Assembly (NCBI RefSeq): GCF_000993825.1
Contig: NZ_CP011114.1
Location: 1,302,001 to 1,366,000 of the forward strand
Direction: 5' to 3'
DNA length: 64,000 bases
Source: Paenibacillus durus ATCC 35681
GTDB taxonomy: Bacteria; Bacillota; Bacilli; Paenibacillales; Paenibacillaceae
Positions within the stretch are counted from its first letter, which is position 1. Each line of letters starts with the position of its first letter. The notes under the pieces were generated by a model. That model made no database searches. It was not told the origin of the DNA and worked only from the letters and a program-made list of their open reading frames with translations. Shown here piece after piece: positions 23,136 through 28,652 of this stretch. A program made the position numbers and the translations under genes.

Positions 23136-24191
23136 TTAAGATGTATAATGTCTTCCGAGTCCAAGCTCCGTAAGCAGCTGCCGGTAGGCGATGGAAGTGC
23201 GGTCAGCCGGAATATGAGCCTCCGCCGTCAGATCCAGCGGGAGGTCTTCCGGAGTCTGAGCCTCGACCATGTCGCGGTCCTCCTGGAACACCTGAAGGTT
23301 AAAATCAATAGTAGGCTGAAGCGGAGCGTCTTTATCGAAATTGCGTGAAATCGGGCAGAACAGACGGGTGTAGCGGGCCGAGACCGGGGAAGCGCAGTTC
23401 AGGATCATCAGCTTCCCGTCGTCTGGAAAATGCACGGTAAGCGACGCGGCGAACGGCGGGAATACGCGGAACGCGCGCAGCCACATAAAGCCTTCCGGAA
23501 CGGGTGCGTTCTGGCCTTTTCCGTAGTTGCTGACCGTGCTCCAATAGTCGGCAAATAACTCAGTGCCTTCGCGTCTCACCTTGTACTGCGGGACCTCCGG
23601 ATTATTGCGGTCGCCGAAGCTGTCCGTATGCACATAAGCGAAATGGGATACGTCCAGGAAGCCCTCCATTTGGCGTCCGGCGGAACCCGCGATGTCAAAG
23701 CTCGGAGGCAAAATATTGATGAAATCCGGATCATCCCAGCCCGGGAAGTCGGGAATTTGTTCCTCGGCACCCGAGAGACAAGTCCAGATCAAGCCGTAGC
23801 GCTCAACTGCAGGATACATAATCAGCTTCAGCTTGGGTGAAATTTTGCTGCTCGGGTGTGCGGGAACCGCGGTACATGCTCCTTCGCAGTTATACCGAAA
23901 GCCGTGATAAGGGCATACGATCTCATCGTTTTCAACCCATCCCATGCTGAGAGGGGCGCCCCGGTGGAAGCAAAGATCGCGGGCAATAACGACTTTGCCC
24001 TTGCTGCGGTAACAGACGAGCTTCACATCCAGCAGCTTCACACCCACCGGCTTGTCCGCAATCTCGCTTGCGATGGCTACCGGATACCAGTATTTAGAGA
24101 GGACATGCCAGTCATTTTCCGTAAATGTACAGTCGCGGGGAAGCTGCGTCTGAGCGGCTTCGGCGGGGGAATTAGCTTTAACATTCATCAT
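23136..24191 (-). CDS. Rieske [2Fe-2S] non-heme iron oxygenase
   Basis: 351 residues. The Rieske cluster ligands are Cys74/His76 (CFH) and Cys93/His96 (CPYH). The mononuclear iron site is DVSHFAYVH, with His183, His188 and a bridging Asp180. The overall layout fits the single-component alpha-subunit group of VanA O-demethylases, PaO and the N-methylpurine demethylases NdmA/NdmB. No reductase or ferredoxin gene lies nearby, so electrons must come from elsewhere. GAGGTG precedes two adjacent ATGs (24191 and 24188). A purine-type aptamer occupies the leader, which suggests a role in purine metabolism. That link is inference. Confidence 0.88.
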   Translation of the reverse strand: MMNVKANSPAEAAQTQLPRDCTFTENDWHVLSKYWYPVAIASEIADKPVGVKLLDVKLVCYRSKGKVVIARDLCFHRGAPLSMGWVENDEIVCPYHGFRYNCEGACTAVPAHPSSKISPKLKLIMYPAVERYGLIWTCLSGAEEQIPDFPGWDDPDFINILPPSFDIAGSAGRQMEGFLDVSHFAYVHTDSFGDRNNPEVPQYKVRREGTELFADYWSTVSNYGKGQNAPVPEGFMWLRAFRVFPPFAASLTVHFPDDGKLMILNCASPVSARYTRLFCPISRNFDKDAPLQPTIDFNLQVFQEDRDMVEAQTPEDLPLDLTAEAHIPADRTSIAYRQLLTELGLGRHYTS

Positions 24192-24230
24192 CTTTCACCT
24201 CACGAATTATTGAATATTCCTCTAATGCAG

Positions 24231-24254
24231 AAAACCCCGGGCGCCAAGAGGCGC
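24231..24254 (-). terminator. Possible expression platform of the purine-type leader
   Basis: On the minus strand GCGCC, TCTT and GGCGC form a short hairpin (24254-24241), followed by CCGGGG and four T. Its CCTCTTG loop and stem can instead pair with CAAGAGG from the 3' side of the aptamer P1 (plus positions 24322-24328). Those two folds would be mutually exclusive. The U-run is short and spaced, so termination is not certain. Confidence 0.45.
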
Positions 24255-24323
24255 ATAGTTAAATCGGCCTTTCGCTGCGCAGCCTAAAGAGGGCCGGACA
24301 GAAAGGGAAATAACTGATACACC

Positions 24324-24391
24324 TCTTGTAGCCTGGGGCAATTCACGGTTGCCTGTAGAGACGCTCACCCAGATTGTGAGCTTATACAAGA
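24324..24391 (-). promoter_or_regulatory. Purine-riboswitch-like aptamer, variant J3/1
   Basis: Read on the minus strand: P1 TCTTGTA/TACAAGA (7 bp, at the two ends), J1/2 TAAG, P2 CTCAC/GTGAG closing loop AATCTGG, J2/3 GTCTCTAC (consensus GTTTCTAC), and P3 GGCAA/TTGCC closing loop CCGTGAA (consensus CCGTAAA). The two loops keep the kissing-loop GG and CCG features. J3/1 should be about four bases around C74 or U74. Here CCAGGCTA joins P3 to P1, with C at the specificity position but about three extra bases. The predicted start of transcription is some 40 bases upstream, and the Rieske start about 130 bases downstream. Confidence 0.82.
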
Positions 24392-24438
24392 AGCAGCAAT
24401 ATAATAGTGTCAGGTTATATGACGCAATTATTGGCTTA

Positions 24439-24467
24439 ATGATAAACTCGGTCCAGGTGGTTGTCAA
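24439..24467 (-). promoter_or_regulatory. Promoter of the riboswitch-Rieske transcript
   Basis: On the minus strand TTGACA, a 17-base spacer and TATCAT, close to the SigA consensus. Transcription should begin near 24432, so the whole aptamer is in the leader. Confidence 0.78.
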
Positions 24468-27096: not shown

Positions 27097-28652
27097 TTTA
27101 GTGTCGCAGTCCCCCACCTCTAAGCCAACAGCGAAGGTGGGGGTTGGACACGTCTACTTAACAAACATATGTTCTTGTGTTATGCTAGATCCATCAAACT
27201 TACGATGGAGGCGCATCCCATGAAGGTGGTCAAAACACTCAAACATCCGATTACGTCTCACCACCGCATGCTAGATGCGACTCTCCATGTATATCAAGAG
27301 GCGCTGTCGTTCTTTATTACGGTCATTCAAGAGCAGTTTATGGCCTTGGAATCGTTATCCACCCAAGCGGTGGTGACGGCAGTAGAACGGCTGACTCACC
27401 GTACCAGGCACAATCCGAATCCGTTTTACACCGAATTCGATCAACGCTTTTATAAGTTTCCTTCTTACTTCCGCAGGAGTGCCATTGCCGAAGCGTTTGG
27501 CATTGTGAAAAGTCATAACTCCCGTTTTCAGCTTTGGCAAGCCGAGCGGCAACACGCCCAGCAAGAAGGGAAACGCTTTTCGAAGAAACCGCCGACACTC
27601 CAAGCTCAGCATCAGGCGTTCCCTTGCTTCTACAAAGGCAATATGTTCATTCGAACCTCCGAAAGGGCAGCCAACATCAAGGTATTTCATCGAGGCGATT
27701 GGGTCTGGCTCCCCATTACCTTTAAAGGGCAGGACCTATTCAAACGTAACGTGTGGAGCATGAAAGAATGCAGCCCCACATTGGTTCGGAAAGGAAAACG
27801 CTATGCCCTTCATATCGCCTATGAGGGAGATGTGAAGTTGACTCAGACGGAACATTCCAAGCAGCGGGTGTGTGCTGTTGATTTGGGGTTAACGAATTCC
27901 GCAGTCTGTTCCGTGATGGAAGCTAACGGCACTGTCTTGGCGAGGACATTTATTAACCAAGCCAAAGAAAAAGACCGGATGCGCCAAATCACAGGTAAAC
28001 TAAAACAAGCCCAGCGTCAATCCGGTATAGGGGCAAAACCGAATTTCTGGCGGCGGATGAACGGCTTACAGACGCATATCGTCCACGATACCGCGCATCA
28101 AATCCTTGCCTTTGCCCAAAAGCACCGCGCAGATGTCATCGTCATGGAGTATTTAGGGAAGATGCGTCTGCCTAGAGGAACGTGGGGAGCCAAGCGGCTT
28201 CGAGCCAAACTCCAGTTTTGGGCCAAACGACGCATCCAAACGAAAGTGACCGAAATGGCGTATTTTCTAGGGATGCGGGTTTCCATGGTCAACCCTGCGA
28301 ATACAAGTGCGCTTGCTTTTGACGGCAGTGGATTTGTACAACGCAACACGAAGCGTGATATTGCTGTATTCGCAACAGGCAAAACGTATCACGCGGACCT
28401 TAATGCCTCGTATAACATCAGCGCACGGTACGTGCTACGTAATATACAAAAATCCACGTCTGAAAAGATGTGGTTGTCCTTGGAGGCAAAAGACCCTTCA
28501 TTGGCAAAACGAACATATTGGACGTTGGCTTCCCTCATTCGGGTGCAACAGGCATTGAGTCTTCAGACATGAAGCTCGCAAGCGTGTGCAACCCTGTATG
28601 GATGCCAACAGAAGCCCCCCACTTCATGCGTAAGCTAAGTAGGGGAGAGTTC
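27097..28652 (+). mobile_element. TnpB-only insertion sequence, copy 2
   Basis: About 1,556 bases, the same organisation as copy 1: left CCCCCACC/GGTGGGGG hairpin, promoter, tnpB and right hairpin. The right stem is imperfect here (CCCCACTT against AAGTAGGGG). Flanks are AATGGA on the left (27091-27096) and ACTGGA on the right (28653-28658), of which TGGA is identical. It sits between the divergent glycosyltransferase and SDR genes. Confidence 0.85.
27220..28572 (+). CDS. tnpB: TnpB-family RNA-guided nuclease, copy 2
   Basis: 450 residues from the ATG at 27220, equivalent to the start chosen in copy 1. The RuvC residues Asp221, Glu310 and Asp393 are all kept (CAVDLGLTN, VIVMEYLGK, HADLNASYNI). 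The cysteine-free TSALAFDGSG segment is identical to copy 1. The 37 substitutions between the copies are scattered and mostly conservative, with no stop or frameshift. This suggests both copies evolved under selection and were acquired separately rather than by recent local transposition. The promoter TTAACA-17-TATGCT (27158-27186) is conserved. Confidence 0.9.
   Translation: MKVVKTLKHPITSHHRMLDATLHVYQEALSFFITVIQEQFMALESLSTQAVVTAVERLTHRTRHNPNPFYTEFDQRFYKFPSYFRRSAIAEAFGIVKSHNSRFQLWQAERQHAQQEGKRFSKKPPTLQAQHQAFPCFYKGNMFIRTSERAANIKVFHRGDWVWLPITFKGQDLFKRNVWSMKECSPTLVRKGKRYALHIAYEGDVKLTQTEHSKQRVCAVDLGLTNSAVCSVMEANGTVLARTFINQAKEKDRMRQITGKLKQAQRQSGIGAKPNFWRRMNGLQTHIVHDTAHQILAFAQKHRADVIVMEYLGKMRLPRGTWGAKRLRAKLQFWAKRRIQTKVTEMAYFLGMRVSMVNPANTSALAFDGSGFVQRNTKRDIAVFATGKTYHADLNASYNISARYVLRNIQKSTSEKMWLSLEAKDPSLAKRTYWTLASLIRVQQALSLQT

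Follow-up and report, generated by a model that had tools for sequence, protein, structure and literature searches.

In Paenibacillus durus ATCC 35681, a riboswitch of the guanine-II kind precedes the gene for a Rieske oxygenase, and the reading we favor, with slightly better than even confidence in all its parts jointly, is that this ON switch drives an enzyme that replaces molybdenum xanthine dehydrogenase and that the class of the sensor changed. The Rieske enzyme would convert xanthine to urate without molybdenum, and perhaps carry the oxidation further, and the urate would then feed HIU hydrolase, OHCU decarboxylase, and allantoinase. The aptamer, its signature, the terminator, and the distribution of the gene are features of the sequences themselves.

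Promoter, aptamer, and terminator upstream of the Rieske gene

The DNA analyzed, called the window here, is a stretch of 64,000 nucleotides (G000:C1, 1302001-1366000) from a 5.58 Mb single-contig genome. The features of the locus are given below, with the stems read from the sequence and with position numbers 51, 73, and 74 taken to be those of the guanine riboswitch.

24467-24439, minus strand: promoter TTGACA-17-TATCAT, 11 of 12 consensus bases
24322..24393, minus strand: aptamer, 72 nt, RF00167; 90.7 bits with covariance model R1, in which the window is a training row
24393-24385 with 24330-24322, minus strand: stem P1
24381-24376 with 24368-24363, minus strand: stem P2
24353-24349 with 24341-24337, minus strand: stem P3
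24354..24361, minus strand: J2/3, TCTCTACA, with T (the U51 equivalent) at 24357 and a single inserted A at 24354
24331..24336, minus strand: J3/1, CCAGGC, with the C74 equivalent at 24331 and G replacing A73 at 24332
24319..24339, minus strand: terminator arm 1, common to the P3 3′ strand, J3/1, and the P1 3′ strand
24254-24235, minus strand: terminator arm 2, with the U-rich tail TTTTCTGC at 24234-24227
23136-24191, minus strand: Rieske oxygenase gene, 351 aa (PF00355, 4e-21; PF19112, 5e-21)

A sequence-only reading of the window had described a SigA promoter, a three-stem purine aptamer with altered bases in its joining regions, and a Rieske oxygenase, and had proposed a covariance-model search and a comparison of homologous leaders as checks. 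RF00167 matched at 24409-24309 on the minus strand with 49.8 bits, where the gathering threshold is 37, and with an E value of 2e-5 over the entire window, and was the sole Rfam match in the 64-kb window at gathering thresholds. The lone 72-nt aptamer folded just moderately better than shuffled sequences (z -2.2; 6 of 200 shuffles as good), so the case for it is carried by the family match and by conservation. A purine aptamer was found upstream and on the same strand in 12 of 13 Rieske homologues (GTDB contigs, 82-95% identical), and at the 13th locus, L018, it was on the opposite strand. The altered joining regions were borne out as an insertion in J2/3 and an extended J3/1, read in the window as CCAGGCTA. 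The promoter also stood, at 11 of 12 consensus bases and ending about 45 bases upstream of P1; the region scanned held 3 promoter-like sites against a mean of 0.9 in shuffles. The PF00355 and PF19112 matches agreed with the named oxygenase, as did CFHRG...CPYHG and DVSHFAYVH, which we take to be the Rieske motif (CxH...CxxH) and the iron motif (DxxHxxxxH) of Rieske non-heme iron oxygenases. What had been overlooked were the terminator, a second aptamer-Rieske pair in the same genome, and the fact that guanine-II and xanthine-II riboswitches are classes already published. In another part of the window (27169-28572, plus strand), a 467-aa ORF resembles, by eye only, an IS605-type TnpB protein.

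Leaders of the same kind were gathered by running a covariance model made from 12 leaders on 394 genomes of the family, of which 170 matched at E 1e-11. Scores among the matches listed fell into two groups, at least 77 bits and at most 71 bits. The 106 upper-group matches listed (2 from the window genome) and the 13 homologue loci gave 119 leaders, and removal of 12 duplicates left 107 distinct ones.

Since the first arm of the terminator is made of the P3 3′ strand, J3/1, and the P1 3′ strand, the aptamer and the terminator are mutually exclusive. The fold of 24345-24223 had a free energy of -59.4 kcal/mol (z -5.8), which none of 200 shuffles equalled; the one hit of a plain consensus terminator scan there was a short local hairpin, against 0.5 hits in shuffles. 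In 106 of the 107 leaders, a downstream segment paired with the aptamer 3′ half below -20 kcal/mol, with class means for the duplex of -27.6 to -35.3 kcal/mol compared to -15.3 to -16.5 for base-shuffled sequences (6 per leader), and at least 5 T within 12 bases followed the downstream partner in 102 of the 107. Compensatory changes were present at several paired positions, for example C-G (102) to A-U (4) in J3/1, and G-C (83) to A-U (17) and C-G (55) to U-A (16) at or beyond the P1 end, counts that lean towards pairing because they include paired cells only, picked by best duplex. In the absence of ligand, the aptamer 3′ half would pair with the segment about 70 bases downstream and form the terminator; with ligand bound, the P3 3′ strand, J3/1, and the P1 3′ strand would be kept in the aptamer, so that transcription would run through into the Rieske gene. 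We infer from this design that the switch works in the ON direction in the cell.

Class of the aptamer and its apparent change within the Rieske family

According to the part of PMC9295807 used here, guanine-II aptamers keep U51 and have one inserted J2/3 base, xanthine-II aptamers have U51G, two inserted J2/3 bases, and a J3/1 insertion, the J3/1 change is the same in both, and both are predicted ON switches. The window has the three-stem aptamer, U51, the one-base J2/3 insertion, the J3/1 insertion, and a terminator overlapping P3, J3/1, and P1, as predicted for an ON switch. By these published features the window RNA is guanine-II, a known variant kind, and because the extended J3/1, the one-base J2/3 insertion, and U51 are those of guanine-II, guanine is its predicted ligand. 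Of the xanthine-II hallmarks, neither U51G (U is at 51) nor the two-base J2/3 insertion (one base is inserted) was found in the window. The unusual ligand that the sequence-only reading had suggested was thus not upheld, as the features match guanine-II and exactly the same J2/3 and J3/1 letters occur in two leaders of phosphoribosyltransferase genes, L099 and L118.

It remains unlikely, in our judgment, that this guanine-II-looking aptamer still binds xanthine or another oxidized purine. Such binding is suggested by the gene, which is orthologous to those of xanthine-II loci, and by the C at position 48, shared with all 23 xanthine-II Rieske leaders. Against this, the features published as separating the two classes include U51 and the single insertion, a phosphoribosyltransferase guanine-II construct did not bind xanthine at 100 uM (PMC9295807, in part), and the L099 and L118 leaders have the same joining regions before phosphoribosyltransferases. 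Binding of guanine in the nanomolar range and rejection of xanthine are characteristic of the guanine-II class.

The genome of the window has seven RF00167 matches, and two of these have a long J3/1, the window aptamer (L007) and L006 (1514-1586, minus), both before Rieske oxygenases. The L006 leader has the guanine-II signature. Its Rieske gene shows 40% identity to the window gene, and behind it lies the gene for a thioredoxin-reductase-like flavoprotein (match below cut-off), possibly the electron donor (L150, 6561-8619, minus). A further aptamer, L005 (1501-1598, minus), has a one-base J2/3 gap and an 8-oxoguanine deaminase (over cut-off) downstream, and is probably of the known 8-oxoguanine class. 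As this separate aptamer lacks the J3/1 insertion and precedes the deaminase gene of the same genome, 8-oxoguanine is unlikely as the ligand in the window, where a Rieske oxygenase and no 8-oxoguanine deaminase is downstream. L003 (1501-1600, plus) is a purine aptamer before an ORF that by eye resembles FAD-dependent oxidoreductases and for which no NCBIfam match was obtained at 1e-20.

A guanine signature ahead of a catabolic oxygenase is unexpected, since published guanine-II genes are mostly phosphoribosyltransferases, the most common association of the class (PMC9295807, in part). In the window this usual, non-obligatory neighbor is absent and the Rieske oxygenase occupies its place. Guanine is converted to xanthine by deamination, and sensing of this precursor before the oxygenase may therefore be anticipatory.

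Just two signatures were present in the 107 leaders and they were never mixed: 60 leaders combine U51 with a single inserted base, and 47 combine G51 with two. The first gene was a phosphoribosyltransferase in 49 leaders (48 U51, 1 G51; Pfam was run on one), an allantoinase in 23, all G51, and a Rieske oxygenase in 34 (23 G51, 11 U51); the cut locus L018, with U51, was not sorted by first gene. An IMP dehydrogenase-like first ORF at four loci was discarded, as the phosphoribosyltransferase frame comes first. The single G51 case among the 49, L049 of genome G289, is a mismatch in the reverse direction, with G51 and two inserted bases before a phosphoribosyltransferase.

Five of the 34 Rieske leaders precede genes of the L006 type and 29 precede orthologues of the window gene (23 G51, xanthine-II; 6 U51, guanine-II); all 29 came either from the aptamer matches or from the 13-locus homologue search and so are uninformative on orthologues without an aptamer. 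For the G51 orthologues the signature is that of xanthine-II, and xanthine is the predicted ligand. A tree was made of 33 Rieske proteins, excluding the broken L078, one of the six guanine-II orthologues, which is split over two frames in genome G209 (the L006-type copy of that genome is open). The five intact U51 orthologues (window, L008, L080, L050, and L115) formed one clade with support of 99/95, placed among the 23 xanthine-II rows, and the L006-type genes formed a separate clade. This result suggests an in-place change of sensor class in the lineage of the window genome. J2/3 starts with TCTC in the window leader, as it does in every one of the 23 xanthine-II Rieske leaders, and with TTTC in L050 and L115; two joining-region changes would suffice for the window, replacement of G51 by U and deletion of a single C. 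Recombination with a different guanine-II leader is a possible alternative route, and outside its own clade the window aptamer was about as close to one class as to the other, at best 88% identical to a xanthine-II leader and 87% to a guanine-II leader.

Distribution of the Rieske gene and of molybdenum xanthine dehydrogenase

The distribution of the gene was followed in 100 genomes of the genus, scored for OHCU decarboxylase (TIGR03164) as the ureide-pathway marker, for pucD (TIGR03196) over cut-off, and for the Rieske orthologue, which were present in 64, 23, and 45 genomes, respectively (the last including the split gene of G209). The 64 marker-positive genomes comprised 40 with the Rieske gene only, 18 with the dehydrogenase only, 5 with both (G200, G204, G206, G227, and G246), and 1 with neither, G255, which has an L006-type Rieske gene only. 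Neither the Rieske gene (0/36) nor the dehydrogenase (0/36) was found in the 36 marker-negative genomes. The co-occurrence p values, 1.6e-10 for alternation and 1.9e-26 for linkage, both ignore relatedness. PF20256 was rejected as a xanthine dehydrogenase marker and replaced by pucD because it is too wide, and a 2x2 test that used it (p = 0.02) is superseded; for the two PF20256 matches of the window genome, the highest score came from a CO-dehydrogenase model, itself under its cut-off, and the scores fell far short of the cut-offs for xanthine dehydrogenase. Xanthine-II Rieske leaders were also seen in 12 genomes outside the genus; among the 8 of these that were examined, all had a molybdenum hydroxylase as called by this wide marker and 2 had a uricase.

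The same alternation was seen within the pathway cluster, which was fetched in 61 of the 64 genomes (G212, G213, and G237 were excluded). The large dehydrogenase subunit was in the cluster stretch at 20 of 20 dehydrogenase-positive loci compared to 0 of 40 Rieske-only loci. In 16 of the 20 it lay between the permease and the pathway genes, and in the other 4 no permease was recognized in the stretch. At the corresponding position, the space in the 40 Rieske-only loci measures 1-2029 bases, which would not accommodate three subunits. On a tree of allantoate deiminases from 57 of the 61 loci, a kind of gene tree that may carry transfer, the Rieske state changes 7 times (6-7 in the bootstrap, at least 3 forced). 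The leader is less widespread than the gene, as the variant aptamer was absent before the Rieske gene in 28 of the 45 Rieske-positive genomes, 10 of which were checked with the Rfam model without finding a purine aptamer. A link between guanine-II leaders and the dehydrogenase was not borne out: the dehydrogenase was present in 2 of the 6 genomes with a guanine-II leader, in 0 of the 11 with a xanthine-II leader, and in 3 of the 28 whose Rieske gene lacks the aptamer.

The closest solved relatives of the window protein by sequence (PDB) are SxtDIOX, SxtT, NdmA, and NdmB; the substrates of all four are purine or purine-like rings. A homologue in Paenibacillus forsythiae is 95% identical. Given the NdmA/NdmB relatives and the co-inheritance with the ureide-pathway marker, a purine is very probably the substrate of the oxygenase, as had been proposed from the sequence. 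Xanthine oxidation appears most likely, in preference to urate oxidation or both, because replacement of the dehydrogenase would fill the xanthine step in all 64 genomes (if the L006-type gene counts for G255), whereas replacement of uricase would leave 40 genomes without that step.

The urate step must be considered as well. Uricase (PF01014) was found in 0 of the 45 Rieske-positive genomes and in 9 of the 100 genus genomes, all dehydrogenase-only. HpxO was rejected as the missing urate oxidase, since 12 of the 100 genomes had matches at 1e-30 and none was over cut-off in any of the 100 (about 17 candidates per genome scored). Neither enzyme was over cut-off in 55 of the 64 marker-positive genomes, which suggests that many members of the genus may have another kind of urate oxidase. 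Given that none of the 45 Rieske-positive genomes has a searched urate oxidase, the Rieske enzyme could instead convert urate to 5-hydroxyisourate in place of uricase, with another enzyme oxidizing xanthine and the riboswitch unchanged. This distribution of uricase and its absence from the 5 genomes that carry the dehydrogenase as well as the Rieske gene are in favor of that reading, which we nevertheless regard as unlikely: 40 genomes would have nothing to fill the xanthine step, 9 dehydrogenase-only genomes that lack uricase would have nothing to fill the urate step, the Rieske gene alternates with the dehydrogenase, and uricase accompanies the Rieske gene in two genomes from outside the genus. 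It is less likely still that the enzyme catalyzes both steps, from xanthine to urate and on to 5-hydroxyisourate. The 40 Rieske-only genomes, with OHCU decarboxylase yet without pucD, uricase, or HpxO at the cut-offs, would be accounted for, and the window genome has an HIU hydrolase-like gene (L148, 6071-6448), a near-copy of which in L155 matches PF00576; two different hydroxylations are, however, a strong demand on one small enzyme, and a urate oxidase of a kind other than the two searched for (uricase and HpxO), such as PuuD, could act instead. A xenobiotic or N-methylpurine demethylase under incidental purine regulation is improbable, even though NdmA and NdmB are among the closest solved relatives and database names of some close relatives are vanillate O-demethylase or NdmA, since a dispensable xenobiotic enzyme would hardly be confined to marker-positive genomes (45 of 45 Rieske-positive genomes have the marker, and 0 of 36 marker-negative genomes have the Rieske gene).

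Molybdenum-free oxidation of xanthine by the Rieske enzyme is therefore the reading we retain. Its wider form, that most ureide-pathway members of the Paenibacillus group oxidize xanthine in this way and that one lineage converted its riboswitch from xanthine to guanine in place, is offered tentatively, with somewhat less than even confidence. If true, it would give a function to a widespread, loosely named Rieske family, as a substitute for the textbook molybdenum enzyme, and would provide a natural record of a riboswitch changing its ligand while the gene stayed. Orthologous genes would then have leaders of differing riboswitch class, which would allow ligand switching in evolution to be tested with real sequences. 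In a literature search that most subscription journals lay outside, none of the papers listed dealt with an enzyme of this kind or a switch of sensor class in Paenibacillus.

Relation to known riboswitches and Rieske enzymes

With the 8-oxoguanine riboswitch, which reportedly always precedes 8-oxoguanine deaminase, the window shares a variant purine fold in Paenibacillaceae, but in its own genome the deaminase gene has a different aptamer, L005. Among enzymes, Klebsiella HpxD/HpxE is a precedent for a Rieske-type substitute and, like NdmA/NdmB, acts on purine rings, with HpxD likened here by its description in the part of PMC7373994 used. The NdmA chains 6ick and 6icp differ at two aligned positions (N/Q and F/L), where the window protein has N and F. 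Unlike HpxD/HpxE and NdmA/NdmB, the window gene has no reductase gene directly behind it.

The xanthine-I (NMT1) riboswitch regulates HpxD/HpxE-related dioxygenases of purine oxidation in Proteobacteria, so that both it and the window RNA precede dioxygenases, in the window probably one of this process; NMT1, however, has an unrelated fold and is an OFF switch (PMC7373994, in part). The closest likenesses are to the two purine-fold classes, for which structures exist (xanthine-II, 9IWF, via part of PMC12776560; guanine-II, crystal structure of Li et al. 2025, via part of PMC13374515). The window resembles xanthine-II in its J3/1, CCAGGC, in its terminator design, and in its gene, as dioxygenases are among the xanthine-II associations along with allantoinase and xanthine dehydrogenase (PMC9295807, in part), and departs from it in lacking U51G and in having one, not two, inserted J2/3 bases. 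With guanine-II, as described in the same portion of that report, it shares the U51, U22, and C74 equivalents, the J2/3 and J3/1 insertions, the ON-type design, and occurrence in Paenibacillus; it differs in having a Rieske oxygenase downstream and in that most leaders at the orthologous loci are xanthine-II.
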